A DNA stretch of 64,000 nt, taken from Paenarthrobacter aurescens TC1 (lineage in GTDB: Bacteria; Actinomycetota; Actinomycetes; Actinomycetales; Micrococcaceae). Positions within the stretch are counted from its first letter, which is position 1, and each line of letters opens with the position of its first letter. Under the pieces are notes generated by a model, which did not search any database, was not told the DNA's origin, and saw nothing but the letters and a program-made list of their open reading frames with translations. The DNA lies in NCBI GenBank assembly GCA_000014925.1, contig CP000474.1, forward strand, positions 4,278,001 through 4,342,000, read 5' to 3'. Positions 26,259-33,093 of the stretch are shown here, one piece after another. A program made the position numbers and the translations under genes.

Positions 26259-26280
26259 TAGTTATATGGCCATATAACTA
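26259..26280. promoter_or_regulatory. Perfect 22-bp palindrome, probable operator
   Basis: The sequence is exactly self-complementary, centred on TATATGGCCATATA at 26263-26276. It is AT-rich in a GC-rich region and separates the small HTH-like frame (leftward) from the Asp23 operon (rightward). The size and symmetry fit a dimeric regulator site. Confidence 0.6.
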
Positions 26281-26412
26281 AATATGCCAGCTCATGCCTT
26301 GCGGAAAAGTGACACACATCACGTGAGTGTGCGCGTGAGAATACCCGGTCCACCACGTCTTATACATGACGGCGCACAAGAACGCCGCAACCCACGGACA
26401 GGAGCTATCGCC

Positions 26413-26901
26413 ATGACGATCCAAACGCACACCCCCGCAGACGTACCGGCCAAGAACACGCAGACTCCCTCACCAGCCCTTTTGGGCGCACCTTCACCCA
26501 ACAAGGGCAAGGACGGACGCGGCGCCACCACCGTTGCCGACGGCGTAGTAGCAAAGATCGCCGGAATCGCCATCCAGGAAATCCCCGGCGTGCACGCCCT
26601 CGGCGGCGGCGCTGCCCGCGCAATCGGCAACCTCCGGGAAAAAGTCGGCCAAAAGGACCTTACCCAGGGTGTCAGCGTAGAGGTCGGCCAAACCCAGGTG
26701 GCTGTTGACGTAACCCTGGTAGTTGAATACCCCCACCCCCTCCAGGAAGTGGCCGACAACGCCCGTGACGCCGTTTATACAGCGATCGAGGACCTGGTTG
26801 GCATGGAAGTCACCGAGGTCAACGTCACCATCACGGACATCCACGTACCGTCCGAGGACGCAGGCGCTGATGACGCCGAGCGCGAGCCGAGGGTGGCATG
26901 A
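26413..26901 (+). CDS. Asp23/Gls24 family envelope stress protein
   Basis: The 162-residue protein has a flexible, Pro-rich N-terminus of about 40 residues and then the Asp23 domain: VADGVVAKIAGIAIQEIPGV, VEVGQTQVAVDVTLVVEYP, and the closing strand VTEVNVTITDIHV. Asp23 proteins are abundant cytoplasmic proteins that bind the membrane through AmaP in Staphylococcus and are induced by cell-envelope stress. The ATG at 26413 follows ACAGGAGC. It heads a run of five genes joined by 4-nt ATGA overlaps, all of Asp23 or membrane-anchor type. Confidence 0.92.
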   Translation: MTIQTHTPADVPAKNTQTPSPALLGAPSPNKGKDGRGATTVADGVVAKIAGIAIQEIPGVHALGGGAARAIGNLREKVGQKDLTQGVSVEVGQTQVAVDVTLVVEYPHPLQEVADNARDAVYTAIEDLVGMEVTEVNVTITDIHVPSEDAGADDAEREPRVA

Positions 26902-27089
26902 GCCCCACCATCGCAGGTTTGGCGATCGGCGCCGCCCTGGCGCTCGCCGGACTGGCGTTCGGTTTTTGGGGCCTCCTACTGACGGCCTTGTTCATGGGAA
27001 TCGGGGCTGTGTTGGGCCGTTCCGCCGAGGGAAAGCTTGACCTTCACGGGGTGCTGGATGCCCTGCGGGGTAAGCGCTCCTCCTCATGA
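26898..27089 (+). CDS. Small DUF2273-like membrane protein
   Basis: This 63-residue protein consists of two closely spaced membrane segments (IAGLAIGAALALAGLAFGFW and LLLTALFMGIGAVLG) followed by a basic cytoplasmic tail (HGVLDALRGKRSSS). That size and layout match the DUF2273 proteins that accompany Asp23 and AmaP genes in other Gram-positive bacteria. It starts in an ATGA overlap with the Asp23 gene and ends in another with the next gene. It probably helps to anchor Asp23-type proteins at the membrane. Confidence 0.8.
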   Translation: MSPTIAGLAIGAALALAGLAFGFWGLLLTALFMGIGAVLGRSAEGKLDLHGVLDALRGKRSSS

Positions 27090-27463
27090 GCGGGACCATT
27101 TCCGGCCTACCGGTCCATGCCACTGCCGGAGCCCGGCTGGGCCACAACCGCATCACCCACACTGCGATTCGAACCACCCTGGAGGCGCTCACCGCCCGCG
27201 CCTTTCGGGTGGACAGGAGCAACGTGTCGGCAGAGTTGAAGGACGACGCCGGAAAGCTCGGGGTCAGCGTCTCGGTCAAGTTGGCACTCCCGCCGCTCCT
27301 GGAGCCGCGCATCGGTTCAGGCACGGTCTTTGACATGGCACAGTCTGCCCGCGCTGACGTTGTGTCCCGCGGTGTGGAACTGACCGGATTGGAAATCGGC
27401 CGGGTAGACATCCGCCTCGTCGGCGGCCACCAGGAACAGCAAAGGAAAAGGAGGGTGGCATGA
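27086..27463 (+). CDS. Asp23-like protein
   Basis: The 125-residue product is not a standard Asp23 match by eye, but its secondary-structure order is the same: a helical stretch (RITHTAIRTTLEALTARAF), strand pairs around SAELKDDAGKLGVSVSVKL, a helix ARADVVSRGVELTG, and a terminal strand IGRVDIRLVGG. It is soluble, with a basic C-terminal end (QQRKRRVA). ATGA overlaps on both sides place it firmly in the operon. The Asp23 kinship is inference; a structure prediction would settle it. Confidence 0.7.
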   Translation: MSGTISGLPVHATAGARLGHNRITHTAIRTTLEALTARAFRVDRSNVSAELKDDAGKLGVSVSVKLALPPLLEPRIGSGTVFDMAQSARADVVSRGVELTGLEIGRVDIRLVGGHQEQQRKRRVA

Positions 27464-28041
27464 GCAAGGATCCAGCAGTCCGGCGTCTGGTCCGCAGGGA
27501 AACGCACTCTTCCAGGGCGGTCCCGTCCATAGTGGCTGCTTCGATCCTGCTTGTTGCTTTCCTTTGGCTGACACTCGAATTCATCCTATGGCTGCTCAAG
27601 GACCAGCCCTTGCTGGCCAGCCCTGCCCAGCTCTTCCGGTGGCTTTTGGAACTTCCCCGCACCACGATCCCGCTGGGCATGACAGGGGCCGGCGCCGGAC
27701 TTGTACTCCTGGGGCTGGTGCTTCTCGGACTCGCTCTGGGGAAGGGACGCAAACGTCGCCGGGCTTTTGGCAGCGACCGCGCGGCAGTAGTGGTGGACGA
27801 CGAAGTAGTCGCGGCAGCCGTCTCCGGCAAGGTAAGGCTGGCTGCCGGTCTTTCGCCTGGACAGGCGACCACCACCGTCAGCGCGCGCTCCGTCCTCATC
27901 CGGGTACGTCCGACGTCGGGCCATCCGCTGGTGGGCGAGGACATCCGGGCAGTTGCCGACAGCGAACTGGCCTCCTACGGACTGGGACGCAAAGTAATGA
28001 CCAACGTCCAGATACTGCACGAAGGAGCGGTCGGGCAATGA
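27460..28041 (+). CDS. DUF6286/AmaP-like membrane protein with Asp23-like C-terminal domain
   Basis: The 193-residue protein has two predicted membrane segments (IVAASILLVAFLWLTLEFIL near residues 24-45 and GAGAGLVLLGLVLLGLALG near 75-95), then a basic linker KGRKRRR. The cytoplasmic domain contains DDEVVAAAVSGKVRLAAGLS, SVLIRVRP and GLGRKVMTNVQIL. This is the layout of AmaP, the membrane anchor of Asp23 in Staphylococcus, although sequence identity is low. It is flanked by ATGA overlaps. Its job is probably to recruit soluble Asp23-like partners. Confidence 0.75.
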   Translation: MSKDPAVRRLVRRETHSSRAVPSIVAASILLVAFLWLTLEFILWLLKDQPLLASPAQLFRWLLELPRTTIPLGMTGAGAGLVLLGLVLLGLALGKGRKRRRAFGSDRAAVVVDDEVVAAAVSGKVRLAAGLSPGQATTTVSARSVLIRVRPTSGHPLVGEDIRAVADSELASYGLGRKVMTNVQILHEGAVGQ

Positions 28042-28643
28042 GGAACACCAATCGGGCGCTCAACCGCAGCCTTCTCTCCCTCTTGGGCATCGTCCTGCTG
28101 GGCGCCGGCGCCGCACTCATCGCGGCCGGAACCCTCCCCGGCGCGGCAGAGCTGTGGGCCACCACAGCATCTTCGATACGGGACAACGCACGCAATCTGA
28201 CAAGCACCGCGACGCTGCCGGAACCCGTCCGAAGCTGGTGGATGGTGGCGGGTGTAGCCGTGCTGCTGGCAGGTGCCGGACTCGGTGCAGCATGGTTGGC
28301 CTCCCAAGGGGGCGGCCGGACACCGCGTCTGGCCGAGCATTCAGATGGCATGGCCGGCCGCACCGTGATAGATGCCGGGCTGGTCTCCGCCGCCGTCCGT
28401 GAAGCCCTTGCCGGTCACCCCGACGTGCTGGCGACTTCAGTCTCCGCATGGGAATCACCGCGAGGCACGGCACTCCGGCTCCGCTTGGAAGCACGCAAAG
28501 GAGCGTCCCCCAAGGACCTCACGGACACGGCAGAACAGCTCCTCCAACAACTGGATGCCTGGCTGGGACGTCCAATGCCCGTCCTGGTCCGAATTACCAG
28601 CGGCACCCGCACACAAGTGTCCGGAACAAGACGCGCCCGGTAA
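28038..28643 (+). CDS. AmaP-like alkaline-shock membrane anchor
   Basis: The 201-residue protein repeats the anchor layout of its upstream neighbour: a first membrane segment (LLSLLGIVLLGAGAALIAAG), an extracytoplasmic loop of about 35 residues, and a second segment (WMVAGVAVLLAGAGLGAAWL). The cytoplasmic domain has RTVIDAGLVSAAVREALAGH and VLVRITSG as helix and final strand. I take it as a second AmaP-type anchor. The ATG at 28038 overlaps the preceding stop as ATGA; longer frames through the upstream gene were rejected. It is the last gene of this part of the cluster. Confidence 0.75.
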   Translation: MRNTNRALNRSLLSLLGIVLLGAGAALIAAGTLPGAAELWATTASSIRDNARNLTSTATLPEPVRSWWMVAGVAVLLAGAGLGAAWLASQGGGRTPRLAEHSDGMAGRTVIDAGLVSAAVREALAGHPDVLATSVSAWESPRGTALRLRLEARKGASPKDLTDTAEQLLQQLDAWLGRPMPVLVRITSGTRTQVSGTRRAR

Positions 28644-28683
28644 TCACAGCTCCAAGGCTTTCACGTAAGTCACGCAGGGCACC

Positions 28684-28729
28684 ACAGTGCAGTGCACCGA
28701 AAAGAAACAGTGCAGTGCACCGAAAAGAA
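28684..28729. repeat. Two exact tandem copies of a 23-bp unit
   Basis: The unit at 28684-28706 is repeated exactly at 28707-28729. It begins ACAGTGCAGTGCACC and ends CGAAAAGAA, and lies directly upstream of the ribosome binding site of the 25-codon gene. It contains the palindrome GTGCAC. Confidence 0.9.
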
Positions 28730-28740
28730 AAGGGAACACC

Positions 28741-28818
28741 ATGGGAATCAGCGACAAGATCAACAATGCAGCCGCCGACATCAGCGAGAACATCAAGGAC
28801 GGCTTCACCAAAAAGTAG
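28741..28818 (+). CDS. 25-residue CsbD-like microprotein
   Basis: This very small gene encodes MGISDKINNAAADISENIKD plus GFTKK. It matches the N-terminus of the CsbD protein at 19112 (MGLGDKIKNAAEEAVGKVKE) in spacing of Gly, Asp, Lys, Ile and the Asn-Ala-Ala core. It has an AAGGGAAC ribosome binding site, an ATG, and a perfect terminator 11 nt after the stop. The clear start, stop and terminator argue that it is a real transcript. It would be a single amphipathic helix. Whether it is functional or a truncated CsbD copy is open. Confidence 0.6.
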   Translation: MGISDKINNAAADISENIKDGFTKK

Positions 28819-28829
28819 GCCGGCGTCCG

Positions 28830-28859
28830 GGACGGTTCCGTCGCGAGACGGAACCGTCC
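28830..28859 (+). terminator. Rho-independent-type hairpin
   Basis: A perfect 13-bp stem (28830-28842 with 28847-28859) with a GCGA tetraloop follows the microprotein gene and separates the anchor genes from the sigma-factor genes. It is followed only by TTCGT. Confidence 0.75.
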
Positions 28860-28911
28860 TTCGTCATCAGGGGATCAAAGTGCCGGACTCACCGCACTGG
28901 AAAGGCAGAAC

Positions 28912-29511
28912 GTGACTGGTTCACCCCCGGCGCAGCACAACGTGGCGCAGCAGCACCTGGACCTCGTACCGGATGCGCTGCTGGCCGGCCGCGCAGCAGA
29001 TGGTGATACTGCCGCCTTCGAAGCACTCGCCCGACGCTACGGCCCCTTGATGCGGGCAACGGCGCGCCGCCTGACCGGCACAATGGCTGACGCCGATGAC
29101 GTGGTCCAGGAAACGCTGATGCAGGCTTGGAAACAGCTGGACAGCCTCCGGGAACCCGCTGCCGTCAAGGGCTGGTTTCTTCGCATCGTGGCTACCCGCA
29201 GCATCGACCATCTGCGGAAGCGCCGCAGCCATGAGGCTTTGGATGACATGGAAAACCGCAACGGCGCCCCTGGCGGACCAAGAACGCAGGATCCGGAAAG
29301 CAGCGCCGTCAACGCTTCGCGGGTGGCCGCATTAAAGTCGGCGCTCGCGCAGCTTCCCGAGGAACAACGGCGGTGTTGGGTACTGAAGGAATTCAATGAG
29401 ATGAGCTATGAGGAGATTGCGCTGACATTGAATATCAGCCCGACCAGCGTCCGCGGCCGTCTGGCCCGGGCACGGATTGCCCTTGCACGCACAATGGAGG
29501 AGTGGCGATGA
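28912..29511 (+). CDS. ECF-type RNA polymerase sigma factor
   Basis: The 199-residue protein is a group IV sigma factor. Region 2 is visible as ALARRYGPLMRATARRLTGT, DADDVVQETLMQAWKQL and KGWFLRIVATRSIDHLRKRR. Region 4 is LAQLPEEQRRCWVLKEFNEM, SYEEIALTLNISPTSVRGRL and ARARIAL. It binds core RNA polymerase to direct transcription of a stress regulon. The GTG start at 28912 lacks a strong ribosome binding site. It overlaps the anti-sigma gene by an ATGA, the usual cotranslated pair. Its own operon and the Asp23 operon upstream are the likeliest targets. Confidence 0.93.
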   Translation: MTGSPPAQHNVAQQHLDLVPDALLAGRAADGDTAAFEALARRYGPLMRATARRLTGTMADADDVVQETLMQAWKQLDSLREPAAVKGWFLRIVATRSIDHLRKRRSHEALDDMENRNGAPGGPRTQDPESSAVNASRVAALKSALAQLPEEQRRCWVLKEFNEMSYEEIALTLNISPTSVRGRLARARIALARTMEEWR

Positions 29512-30119
29512 AAATCCCCGGCGACACCCTGGAGTGCGGGCACAGTCTCGCGGAACTGAGCACCTACTTGGACACGGGAGAGATTGAGGATCCCACCCAT
29601 GTGGAGGGTTGCCCCGAGTGCCAGTCGGGATTGGCCGCACTGCGGAGACTCTCCGAACTTGGCAGCGAATTGCTGACATCCGATGTTGCCGATGCCGGAT
29701 CCGGCAACGACGACTGGATGCAGTCCATCCTGGACAACCTTCGCTTGGAACTTCGGCCGGGACGCATCATCCCCCTCCGTCCCGGAAACCCCATGGACTC
29801 CCTCGGGGAGACGGAAGGCTCAGTGTCGGCCCTGATCCGTTCAGTGGCCGACGCCCTCCCCGGAACAGCCGTTGGCAGGTGCCGCCTGAACGGCGATGTC
29901 ACAGTGCCAGGTGCCGGCATCACCGTGGAGGTGGACCTGGCGGTGGTCTTCGGACATTCCATCGAAGAGCGCGCCGCAACCCTGCGCGACGAGCTGGCTG
30001 AGGTCCTGGCCGTCCAGACGGAACTGAATATCCAATCGATCAACATCACCGTAACTGACGTGCTGGAGCCACCCGCCCCTGCCCGGCACACCACACCCAC
30101 CACGGAGGAACAGCCATGA
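29508..30119 (+). CDS. ZAS anti-sigma domain fused to an Asp23-like domain
   Basis: The 203-residue protein opens with a zinc-binding anti-sigma domain: His31-x3-Cys35-x2-Cys38, the ZAS H-x3-C-x2-C signature, with an earlier Cys10. After a linker it continues into an Asp23-like domain of about residues 100-190: ALPGTAVGRCRLNGDV, ITVEVDLAVVFGHSIEERAA, and the final strands NIQSINITVTDVLEP. The last strand matches NVTITDIHV of the Asp23 protein at 26413. No membrane segment is present. This joins sigma-factor control directly to Asp23-type envelope sensing. The ATG at 29508 has GGAGG 7 nt upstream; a GTG two codons earlier is also in frame. Confidence 0.85.
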   Translation: MKIPGDTLECGHSLAELSTYLDTGEIEDPTHVEGCPECQSGLAALRRLSELGSELLTSDVADAGSGNDDWMQSILDNLRLELRPGRIIPLRPGNPMDSLGETEGSVSALIRSVADALPGTAVGRCRLNGDVTVPGAGITVEVDLAVVFGHSIEERAATLRDELAEVLAVQTELNIQSINITVTDVLEPPAPARHTTPTTEEQP

Positions 30120-30466
30120 CGGAGCCTGCGGAAACTGCCAACCACTCCCACGCCGTCATCTCAGCTGACGTGGCCAAGGAACTGCTCGGCATTGTCCAGG
30201 CGGTGGCAGGAGTGGTGTCGGTCTACCCAGCCCAGCCCCTGTGGCAGTCCATTGCCGGGGCAGCGGTGGCGGCAATCACGGGAGAGGCTCTTCCGCTGAT
30301 CGGCGTAACGGTCAGCCCGGACGGCGTGGCAGTCAAGGCCAGGATCGGCGTGGGCACCGTCCGTCCCGCGCCGGAAGTAGCCCGCGAAGCAGCCGCTGCC
30401 GTCCGTCAGCATCTGCACCCCGCATCAGCCGCCGTCGAGATCCTGGTGGTCAAAATAGGTCCGTAG
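30116..30466 (+). CDS. Asp23-like protein, last gene of the sigma operon
   Basis: The 116-residue protein has a short disordered N-terminus and a domain that follows the Asp23 order: helix VISADVAKELLGIVQAVAGV, a strand pair around LIGVTVSPDGVAVKARIGV, helix PEVAREAAAAVRQHLHP and end strand AVEILVVKIG. It starts in an ATGA overlap with the ZAS-Asp23 gene, so sigma factor, anti-sigma and this protein are coupled. It may compete with or bind the Asp23 half of the anti-sigma factor; this is a hypothesis. No other family is suggested. Confidence 0.7.
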   Translation: MTEPAETANHSHAVISADVAKELLGIVQAVAGVVSVYPAQPLWQSIAGAAVAAITGEALPLIGVTVSPDGVAVKARIGVGTVRPAPEVAREAAAAVRQHLHPASAAVEILVVKIGP

Positions 30467-30480
30467 TCACCTGGGCATCG

Positions 30481-30526
30481 TCAAGTTCTGGTTCATAATG
30501 AACAAACTGAACACAAGTGAACTTGA
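30481..30526. promoter_or_regulatory. Nested inverted repeats upstream of the DeoR/LacI-type regulator
   Basis: An inner palindrome GTTCATAATGAAC (30491-30503) lies within an outer pair TCAAGTTC (30481-30488) and GAACTTGA (30519-30526), together with AAGTGAAC half-sites. The same AAGTGAACA/TGTTCACTT element recurs upstream of the transporter genes, so the regulator probably binds both. Confidence 0.6.
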
Positions 30527-30540
30527 TAGGTGGAACCTGC

Positions 30541-31644
30541 ATGCTTGCCGAGGATCGTCAACAGCTCATCCTCCGAGAACTGGCCCTCCACGGCTCCCTG
30601 AATGCCGGCGAATTCGCGGCCAAGCTTGGAACGTCGGGGATGACAGTGCGGCGCGATTTGGCGGTGCTTGCGGAGCAGGGGCTGCTGGAGCGGGTCCACG
30701 GCGGTGCCATCGCAGTCGGGGGAAAGCCCACGGCCAGTCCAAGCGCTCAGCCGTCAACGTCGTGGCGTCCGGGCGGAAGGCGGCCCTTGGCGACGATCGG
30801 CATGATCGTACCGTCGGCGTCGTACTATTTCCCGGGCGTGATCCGCGGTGCCGAAGCGGCCGCGCAGGAATCCGGGGTGCGGTTGGTGCTGGGGGTTTCC
30901 AACTATTCGGGCGCCGAAGAGCGGCGGCAGTTGCGCAGACTCTACGAACACGGTGTGGACGGCATCCTGGTCACGCCAAGTGAGCAGTCGTTGGCCGGCA
31001 CTGAGACCTTGGATCTGCTCGCGGAGGCTGAGGTTCCCGTGGTGGTGGTGGAGCGTTCAATCGACGACGCCCTGGACCACGGCCGGCTCGAATCGGTGCG
31101 GAGCGACCATGTCCGCGGCTCGGAGATCGCAGTCAACCACCTGCTGGGGCTTGGGCATCGGAAGATCGCGATTTGCCTTCGCGAGAACAGCCCCACCGCG
31201 CCGCAGCTGATCGATGGCTTCCATGTGGCAATGCAGCGGGCCGGGCATGCGCGCGACGATTCGATGGTCCGCGCCATGTCCCGCGCCCAAAACGATCCGC
31301 AGGCCCACCGTGAGCTGGTGGACGGGATCCTGAACTGGTGTGCCGATTACGAGGTGACTGCCGTGGTTGTTCATACCGACGAGGACGCGCTCCAGTTTGT
31401 GAGCGCTTGCCTGGAACGCCAGATACGCGTCCCGGAGGACTTTGCGATCGTCTCCTACGACGACGAGATCGCAGCCCTTGGCGCTGTCCCGCTCACCGCT
31501 GTGGCACCACCGAAGTACGACGTCGGCCACCAGGCTTTGGTGATGTGCCTCAACCGGATCGGCGGCAAGCGTGGAAGCACGTCCGCGTTGCAGCGCGTGA
31601 ATCTCTCCCCGGCGCTGGTGGTGCGGGACTCGACGCAACCGTAG
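30541..31644 (+). CDS. Regulator with DeoR-type HTH and LacI-type sugar-binding domain
   Basis: The 367-residue protein combines a DeoR-type winged helix at its N-terminus (DRQQLILRELALHGSLNAGE, FAAKLGTSGMTVRRDLAVLAE, LERVHGGAIA) with a periplasmic-binding-protein-like sensor domain from about residue 80 (LATIGMIVPSASYYFPGVIR, DGILVTPS, FAIVSYDDEIAAL). That combination is less common than LacI HTH plus the same sensor. The ATG at 30541 follows AGGTGG. It is upstream of, and co-oriented with, a sugar ABC importer, and shared TGTTCACTT/AAGTGAACA elements flank it. It is probably a sugar-responsive repressor of that importer. Confidence 0.88.
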   Translation: MLAEDRQQLILRELALHGSLNAGEFAAKLGTSGMTVRRDLAVLAEQGLLERVHGGAIAVGGKPTASPSAQPSTSWRPGGRRPLATIGMIVPSASYYFPGVIRGAEAAAQESGVRLVLGVSNYSGAEERRQLRRLYEHGVDGILVTPSEQSLAGTETLDLLAEAEVPVVVVERSIDDALDHGRLESVRSDHVRGSEIAVNHLLGLGHRKIAICLRENSPTAPQLIDGFHVAMQRAGHARDDSMVRAMSRAQNDPQAHRELVDGILNWCADYEVTAVVVHTDEDALQFVSACLERQIRVPEDFAIVSYDDEIAALGAVPLTAVAPPKYDVGHQALVMCLNRIGGKRGSTSALQRVNLSPALVVRDSTQP

Positions 31645-31660
31645 CGCTGCCCTCGCAGCC

Positions 31661-31697
31661 TGTTTACTTCTGTTCACTTCATTGATGATGTTCACTT
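31661..31697. promoter_or_regulatory. Three TGTTCACTT-type direct repeats upstream of the ABC importer
   Basis: TGTTTACTTC (31661), TGTTCACTTC (31671) and TGTTCACTT (31689) lie in the gap before the solute-binding protein gene. They are the reverse complement of half-sites near the regulator's own start and are likely operator elements. Confidence 0.55.
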
Positions 31698-31779
31698 TTG
31701 TGGATTTCATAGTGCCTAGTCAAAGGTGCCCCCCAGGGCACGCCACGACTTCGCATCGTGAACTTCAAAGGAGAACAGA

Positions 31780-33093
31780 ATGAAGCGTCGCCAGCTTCTG
31801 CTTGGAGCAGTCAGCCTCATGGCCAGTGCTGCCCTCGTCACCGGCTGTGGGAGTACCCCGGCAGCCACGCCAACCCCCACTCTCACCGAAGACCCCAGCG
31901 GCACCATCACTTTCTGGTCCTCCATGGCCGGGATGGACAAGGTGGCCGAGGCGTTCAACGCCAGCCAGAGCAAGATCAAGGTCAACTTCGAGACCATCCC
32001 CAACGGCGGGGCCGGCGGGTACGCCAAGCTCTCCACCGCGATCACAGCAGGCAACGGCCCGGACGTTGCCACCATCGAATACCCGCAGCTGCCGCAGTTC
32101 GTCAGCAACGGCCAACTGCAGCCGCTGGACGGATACATCAACAAAGCCGAAACCGTGGACAAGCTCACGGATGAGACCAAGGCATTGGTGCAGTTCGGCG
32201 ATCAGACCTACGCCCTTCCCTACGATGCCGCCCCCATGATCATGTGGTACCGCAAGGACATGCTGGACAAGGCCGGTGTCTCCACGCCCAAGACCTGGCA
32301 GGAATTTGAAGAAGCGGGCAAGAAGATCAAGGCAGTTGCCCCGGAAGCACACCTCGCCAGCTTCAACCCTAACGAGGCCGCGCTGACTGCGGCTCTCTCC
32401 TGGCAGGCCGGTGCCAAGTGGTTCGGCACAGAAGGTGATAGCTGGAAGATCGGCGTCAACGACCAAGCAACCAAGAAGGTGGGCACCTACTGGCAGAAGC
32501 TGATCGACCAGAAGATCGTCAAGGTTCAGCAGTCCTTCAGCGACGAGTGGTCCGCAGATCTGGCGAGTGGCGCCGTCGTGGGTGTCCTGGGTGCCAACTG
32601 GAGCGCAACCGGCATCCAGAAGCGTACGGAAGCAAGCGGCCAGAAGGGGCAGTGGATCGCTGCCGAGGTGCCCAACTGGGGCTCACCCGCGGACGCGTTC
32701 TACGGCGGTTCCAGCTTCAACATCACCAAGAGCAGCAAGAACCCGGCAGCCGCCGCCAAGTTCATCGAGTTCCTGGCCACCAGCAAGGACGCCATCACCG
32801 CCCGCGGAAACACCGGCTCCGCCTACCTCGCCTTCCCCGGCCTGACCCCGGTTGCGCAGGAGGCATTCGACGCCAGCTACTTCGGCAACGACATCTACTC
32901 CGTCTTCGACAAGGCCTACGCCTCGATCACGCCGGGATGGCAGTGGGGTCCCAATTGGGACATCACCAACACCGCTCTCAAGGACGCCTACGGCACGCTG
33001 ACCAGCGGCGGCAAGGTGCTGGACGCCGTTGACACGGCCCAGGGCGCCACGGTGGCCGGACTCAAGCAGAACGGCCTCTCCGTCAAGGAGTAG
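31780..33093 (+). CDS. Sugar ABC transporter solute-binding lipoprotein
   Basis: The 437-residue protein has a lipoprotein signal ending in the lipobox LVTGC (Cys23) and then a class-I carbohydrate-binding protein. Segments such as GTITFWSSMAGMDKVAEAFN, GPDVATIEYPQLPQFVSNG, YALPYDAAPMIMWYRKDML and GGSSFNITKSSKNPAAAAKF identify the CUT1 sugar-binding family. It captures a mono- or oligosaccharide outside the membrane and delivers it to the two permeases that follow. The sugar is unknown. The ATG follows AAAGGAGAAC, and a stable hairpin lies between this gene and the first permease gene. Confidence 0.92.
   Translation: MKRRQLLLGAVSLMASAALVTGCGSTPAATPTPTLTEDPSGTITFWSSMAGMDKVAEAFNASQSKIKVNFETIPNGGAGGYAKLSTAITAGNGPDVATIEYPQLPQFVSNGQLQPLDGYINKAETVDKLTDETKALVQFGDQTYALPYDAAPMIMWYRKDMLDKAGVSTPKTWQEFEEAGKKIKAVAPEAHLASFNPNEAALTAALSWQAGAKWFGTEGDSWKIGVNDQATKKVGTYWQKLIDQKIVKVQQSFSDEWSADLASGAVVGVLGANWSATGIQKRTEASGQKGQWIAAEVPNWGSPADAFYGGSSFNITKSSKNPAAAAKFIEFLATSKDAITARGNTGSAYLAFPGLTPVAQEAFDASYFGNDIYSVFDKAYASITPGWQWGPNWDITNTALKDAYGTLTSGGKVLDAVDTAQGATVAGLKQNGLSVKE

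Follow-up and report, generated by a model that had tools for sequence, protein, structure and literature searches.

A 64,000-nucleotide (nt) stretch of the genome of Paenarthrobacter aurescens TC1 (contig CP000474.1, positions 4,278,001 to 4,342,000, hereafter the window) carries at 26413-30466 a cluster of Asp23-type genes, here called A to I, in which an extracytoplasmic function (ECF) sigma factor (G) is followed by a predicted anti-sigma factor (H) that bears an Asp23 domain of its own. The gene list and the ATGA couplings that a sequence-only reading of this DNA had given for the cluster were borne out by the coordinates and the overlaps, which chain A-B-C-D-E and, separately, G-H-I. Upstream of A lies a conserved promoter-like motif that is associated with the sigma pair across related genomes and that G would read. 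The features are listed below from 5' to 3', with protein lengths in amino acids (aa) and, where Pfam models matched (reporting limit E<=1), scores in bits.

26308-26323, +: candidate CRP/GlxR-like box AGTGACACACATCACG (8/10 against TGTGA-N6-TCACA)
26334-26362, +: conserved ECF-like bipartite promoter motif CGTGAG-N16-CGTCTTA, 5' of A (motif comparison across loci)
26413-26901, +: A, Asp23 family protein, 162 aa (PF03780, 93.9 bits; cut-off 28)
26898-27089, +: B, DUF2273 small membrane protein, 63 aa (PF10031, 26.8 bits; cut-off 25.4)
27086-27463, +: C, Asp23-like protein, 125 aa (profile match to A and H; no Pfam match)
27460-28041, +: D, membrane anchor, 193 aa, with a probable Asp23-like C-terminus of the DUF6286 type (hydropathy; profile D-H)
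28038-28643, +: E, AmaP-like membrane anchor, 201 aa, with an Asp23-like C-terminus (hydropathy; profile E-H)
28741-28818, +: F, shortened CsbD-like gene, 25 aa (CsbD in the same slot of relatives)
28829-28860, +: hairpin between F and G, 14-bp stem (-33.1 kcal/mol, z -3.9)
28912-29511, +: G, ECF sigma factor, 199 aa (Sigma70_r2, 62.5 bits; r4_2, 55.6 bits; tree)
29508-30119, +: H, predicted soluble anti-sigma factor, 203 aa, with a ZAS-like N-terminus and a C-terminal Asp23 domain (PF03780; Cys-His-Cys-Cys tetrad; AlphaFold model)
30116-30466, +: I, Asp23-fold protein, 116 aa (profiles H-I and A-I; AlphaFold model)

H could also start at the GTG at 29502. By hydropathy scan, two transmembrane (TM)-like segments were found in each of D and E and one in B, whereas none were found in A, C, G or H; I has a single hydrophobic stretch (46-64), which overlaps helix 42-55 of its model.

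Conservation of the sigma pair was followed through H. A single-sequence search within the family matched 24 of 100 genomes and 12 of 32 genera at 1e-5, some of them over one half of the protein only, and a 24-sequence H profile matched 127 of 394 genomes of the class at 1e-6, with most of the listed rows covering the Asp23 half only. Full-length H, defined as a listed row that starts no later than model position 25 and ends no earlier than position 180, was present in at least 40 of the 394 class genomes among the matches listed. In the fetched loci with full-length H (n = 112, near-identical loci included and some stretches stopping at contig edges), G was present in 112/112, Asp23 in 103/112 and a recognised I in 62/112, with no Asp23 gene within the fetched stretch in the other 9. 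Genes A-E came first and colinear with the pair in 50 of these loci, the two groups were divergent in 45, and G-H came first and colinear in 8. The sigma pair is thus conserved beside Asp23 genes in related genomes, as the gene-order check proposed by the sequence-only reading had anticipated. Thirty-seven loci came from a named collection, 35 of them from genera taken as Micrococcaceae, one from Microbacterium and one from Sporosarcina. In a tree of 65 rows (49 G and 16 sigma paralogues encoded by the genome of the window) the labels changed twice, compared to a shuffled mean of 14.4, and the G group was interrupted by one such paralogue, on a branch of length 3.39. Asp23 clusters without the pair are nevertheless common, neither G nor H being found in 26 of 40 picked loci. 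As a separate observation, a record of Sporosarcina beigongshangi (L117; fetched loci are numbered with L) holds an Arthrobacter-type cluster with an H 45% identical to that of the window, perhaps from a mislabelled assembly.

The promoter-like motif, with boxes CGTGAs and CGTCyTA 16-17 nt apart, stands 5' of A in many relatives. With a weight matrix trained on 18 loci (threshold 10), and with near-copies removed from the held-out set, the motif preceded A in 44 of 72 held-out loci with H, compared to 2 of 29 without it (Fisher 3.8e-7, a statistic that ignores kinship), and shuffled sequences reached the threshold in 0.4%. Over 143 loci, a count that includes the training loci and near-copies, 83 of 164 motif matches fell where A or G begins, compared with an area-based expectation of 3.0. 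The two H-less exceptions with the motif were L187, which has G together with an H-like protein that the full-length definition leaves out, and L217. Where G-H lead the operon (L136-L138), it is G rather than A that the motif or a variant of it precedes. The 5.2-Mb genome has a single match to the exact pattern.

The genome has another Asp23 cluster (L051, genome positions 456000-469000), which resembles that of the window in the five-gene order A-E and differs from it in having neither H nor the promoter motif; an ECF gene 1.7 kb 3' of it is a distant paralogue of G. From the distribution of the motif, its single genomic site and its absence at the H-less L051, we infer that G reads the promoter at 26334-26362 and that its regulon would be very narrow. 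The association of the motif with the sigma pair is itself established by these sequence comparisons. A side observation concerns L217 (G056:C2:112000-124500), a lone Asp23 gene with a motif score of 18.7 in a genome whose sigma pair lies elsewhere (L049); it may be a target in trans.

A second input may act at the same place. The CRP/GlxR-like box of the window lies 26 nt upstream of the -35-like element, and a box 25-26 nt upstream of the first promoter box was found in 32 of 43 promoter-bearing loci with a C gene, compared to 4 of 21 others; a box was counted when the best match within 60 nt scored at least 8/10, and all 36 loci so counted had it at 25-26 nt. Among the proteins of the genome is one of CRP type (cNMP domain, 98.3 bits; identity as CRP by eye). 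In the family that holds Microbacterium no box scoring at least 8/10 was found at the listed loci (L121, L124-L129, L133-L135). Further upstream, 26259-26280 forms a perfect 22-bp palindrome, tAGTTATATGGCCATATAACTa, with degenerate versions upstream of A in L031 and L091; it is possibly the operator of another regulator.

The sequence-only reading had seen several Asp23-fold proteins in the cluster, six of them with the same kind of ending, and had called H a zinc-associated anti-sigma (ZAS)-Asp23 protein. Pfam placed H marginally above the PF03780 cut-off (28.3 bits against 28), and the same model was matched by 21 of 24 H homologues at E<=0.1. C, D, F and I had no Pfam match and E none above any cut-off, so that C, D, E and I of the window, without a PF03780 match, fall below its curated cut-off; among the members listed of their families, PF03780 was matched by 2/12 for C, 1/37 for I and 0/12 for both D and E. 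DUF6286 was matched by 8 of 12 members of the D family at E<=0.1, although not by the D of the window, and E reached 19 bits against the AmaP equivalog NF033218, far under its cut-off of 55.

Kinship among A, C, D, E, H and I was examined with deep hhalign profiles. The strongest pairs were A-H (2.5e-14), D-E (1.5e-9), C-H (3.7e-9), A-C (2.6e-7) and E-H (2.2e-6), followed by H-I (5.6e-5), D-H (6.8e-5), A-E (1.2e-4) and A-I (1.5e-4), and then by the weaker C-E (3.5e-4), D-I (0.0013), C-D (0.01), E-I (0.013), A-D (0.053) and C-I (0.058). In a reversed-profile control of 30 comparisons, D and E scored against each other at 3.1e-5 and 6.5e-5, with all else at 0.0071 or worse. The D-E value is therefore partly an effect of hydrophobic helices, and the weak membership of D depends on the D-H match. 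AlphaFold models, made for H and I, both matched the same fold in the Protein Data Bank (PDB). C, D, E and I, without a PF03780 match and alike by profile (I also by model), are accordingly named Asp23-like only. The shared Asp23 fold appears firm for A, C, H and I, fair for E and weak for D. Several proteins of this fold are thus present as proposed; of the six alleged endings, those of A, C, E, H and I are tied together by the profiles and that of D less firmly, and the structural comparison that had been called for upholds the common fold in H and I, with the remaining four placed by profiles. Likeness to the C-terminal domains of CDF transporters (MamM, YiiP) was set aside as likeness of fold, with 6-22% identity in the rows shown and nothing else transporter-like.

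The N-terminus of H carries C10, H31, C35 and C38, that is, an H-x3-C-x2-C motif plus an upstream Cys. The zinc ligands of RsrA are Cys11, His37, Cys41 and Cys44 (PMC4960319). In the rows of the deep alignment, the C-H-C-C tetrad was complete in 86 of 104 H homologues, with the CxxC pair in 97 and Cys38 in all 104; it was partly missing in 18, Tyr replacing His31 in L036-L038 and Cys10 being absent in L040-L042. A PDB profile search with H gave as its best two matches, both sub-threshold, DdvA (a named anti-sigma factor; E 0.052) and 3hug_B (E 0.21), which we take to be the ZAS protein RslA, and both alignments span the H-x3-C-x2-C motif. Pfam zf-HC2 was touched by 1 of 24 H homologues, at 0.076, and the rows of a structure search with the H model were taken up by the Asp23 half. 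The hydropathy scan of H, with no TM-like segment, does not fit a membrane-bound anti-sigma factor released by proteolysis. The spacing of the zinc motif, the sub-threshold anti-sigma matches and this lack of a TM segment together lead us to call H a predicted soluble ZAS-type anti-sigma factor. The earlier picture of a ZAS-like N-terminus joined to an Asp23 domain is supported.

The slot between E and G was compared by pattern search in the 34 colinear loci among the 37 named ones: 24 had CsbD and 7 a GlsB-type membrane protein, among them 3 with both, and 6 had neither. Pfam scored the 76-aa CsbD homologue of L031 at 54.5 bits (cut-off 40) and gave Transgly_assoc at 25.7 bits for L034. In most relatives that keep it, CsbD has 75-91 aa, mostly 76 in the named ones. 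F itself did not match CsbD (PF05532) and is similar to the beginning and the end of the longer versions, so that the CsbD-like microprotein of the sequence-only reading keeps its kinship and is corrected to a 25-aa remnant of a usually longer gene. Hairpins were also found in L031 (z -3.5) and L032 (z -2.3). The one between F and G possibly attenuates or processes the transcript ahead of the sigma genes, and given its strength read-through may yield less of G-H-I; in L039 an ATGA overlap between E and G makes a single operon plausible. Beyond the cluster, 30517-33093 encodes a DeoR/LacI-type regulator and the sugar-binding protein of an ABC importer (names by eye), apparently unrelated.

We consider it likely that the locus forms a dedicated sigma/anti-sigma loop acting on its own Asp23 operon, linked to the membrane Asp23 assembly through the Asp23 domain of H. 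The dedicated sigma factor G would drive the Asp23-operon promoter as its main, perhaps only, target, a CRP-type regulator would add a further input there, and the transcript would take in A-E, F and, by presumed read-through past the hairpin, G-H-I. H would restrain G through its ZAS-like helices, while its C-terminal Asp23 domain would dock into a membrane-anchored assembly in which A and C sit on the anchors D and E, I being a further partner. Sigma activity would then follow the amount or state of the assembly, and docking could either free G or lock it.

Several observations weigh against this proposal. L217 has the motif without a sigma pair in the fetched stretch, and 28 of the 72 held-out H loci lack it before A at the threshold used. 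Three of these misses (L044, L098, L214) have a strong site beyond the scanned stretch, because the start of the open reading frame was over-extended; four (L205, L207, L208, L211) have motif scores of 7.9-9.5; and 11 carry a GTGTCC-type variant before A or G. This variant, CGTGAs and a GTGTCC-like second box separated by N14-18, preceded A or G in 15 of 28 class-wide loci compared to 0 of 26 pair-less loci (shuffles 1/480 and 2/520), the pattern having been written after some of its sites were seen. Neither motif nor variant was found in the remaining 10 (L049, L050, L130, L140, L143, L148, L156, L158, L159, L161). Moreover, the reversed pattern, used as a control in whole genomes, outnumbers the pattern itself (five matches in the genome of the window), an excess that makes this control a poor estimate of chance. 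No motif lies directly before G in the arrangement of the window, so that expression of G depends on the assumed read-through. Finally, the place of D, one of the two anchors, in the Asp23 fold is weak.

A more specific form of the loop can be put forward tentatively: H bears a copy of the assembly domain of the scaffold itself, and its co-assembly into a membrane Asp23 polymer would report the amount of scaffold built and would set transcription of the scaffold operon alone, as a CRP-gated closed loop. The hypothesis of the sequence-only reading, taken strictly, is that membrane Asp23 assemblies sense envelope damage and release H and G, which we regard as doubtful. The anchors D and E do bear Asp23-like domains, Staphylococcus aureus mounts its cell-wall stress response when Asp23 or AmaP is lost (PMC6954212), and in Curtobacterium expression of an Asp23 gene and of a GlsB gene was raised at each of the four stages of drying (PMC12029717), which by analogy makes drying a possible cue. 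A promoter with a single target, on the other hand, fits supply control of the scaffold equally well, and in Streptomyces venezuelae an ethanol shock was reported to lower the expression of an Asp23 gene (PMC9769785), which also speaks against a general stress role.

It is unlikely that H is an RsrA-like redox sensor in which oxidation of the zinc cysteines frees G and the Asp23 domain only positions or dimerises H. The ligand spacing is that of RsrA, whose trigger disulfide joins Cys11 and Cys44 (PMC4960319). The full tetrad in 86/104 homologues and Cys38 in 104/104 agree with such a role, but its incompleteness in 18/104 does not. The constancy of the Asp23 half, being part of the H search query, says little. 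Many ZAS proteins bind zinc without redox sensing, which also counts against this explanation. There is little probability that another sigma factor reads the promoter while G and H act elsewhere, their linkage being mere co-inheritance: the motif was found by association, not biochemistry, does not stand directly before G in the window and is missing in any form from 10 of 72 held-out H loci, but 27 of the 29 Asp23 loci that lack full-length H, L051 included, do not have it, and it moves to G in L136-L138. A partner switch, with I as an anti-anti-sigma factor competing for the Asp23 domain of H, appears improbable, for although I is ATGA-coupled to H, shares its fold and is recognised in 62 of 112 H loci, it is not recognised in the other 50, and the sigma factor is expected to be held by the ZAS half rather than the Asp23 half.

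The linkage of an ECF sigma factor to Asp23 genes, which the sequence-only reading set apart from the Asp23/AmaP clusters of Firmicutes, is not new but in print for Actinobacteria: groups ECF286 and ECF292 are encoded beside soluble Asp23-family proteins that are predicted anti-sigma factors (PMC8999054). Their model members come from Streptomyces and Mycolicibacterium (Casas-Pastor 2021 classification, as given in PMC8999054), and the review set both groups aside for lack of experimental data (PMC8999054). With its ECF sigma factor next to a soluble Asp23-family protein, the system described here is, by gene context, very likely of the ECF286/ECF292 kind. The review lists ZAS-regulated groups (ECF270/271) apart from the Asp23-linked ones (PMC8999054), whereas H seems to be both. 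Compared to the ZAS factors RsrA, ChrR and RslA, H shares the H-x3-C-x2-C motif with its upstream Cys and the N-terminal helices, and differs in its Asp23-fold C-terminal domain and in a tetrad that is incomplete in part of its homologues. In the literature examined we found no earlier description of a protein with both ZAS and Asp23 parts, of this promoter, of so narrow a target, of the CRP box or of the contrast with H-less clusters, although the original ECF classification may hold promoter predictions.

The asp23 operon of S. aureus, like the cluster studied here, has a DUF2273 partner; unlike it, that operon is under SigB control and, to our knowledge, has no ECF pair. AmaP tethers Asp23 at the membrane there and Asp23 forms filaments; as in the window, scaffold and anchor share one operon (PMC6954212). 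The anchors of the window score far under the cut-off of the AmaP equivalog. In Gram-positive bacteria, Asp23 proteins are both common and strongly expressed (PMC5437119), and their molecular function has been described as unclear (PMC6954212). The promoter, the predicted very narrow target, the scaffold-domain anti-sigma factor and the H-less paralogous cluster would together provide a clean system for testing what Asp23 assemblies do, and one suited to the study of how a soluble anti-sigma factor can sense them.

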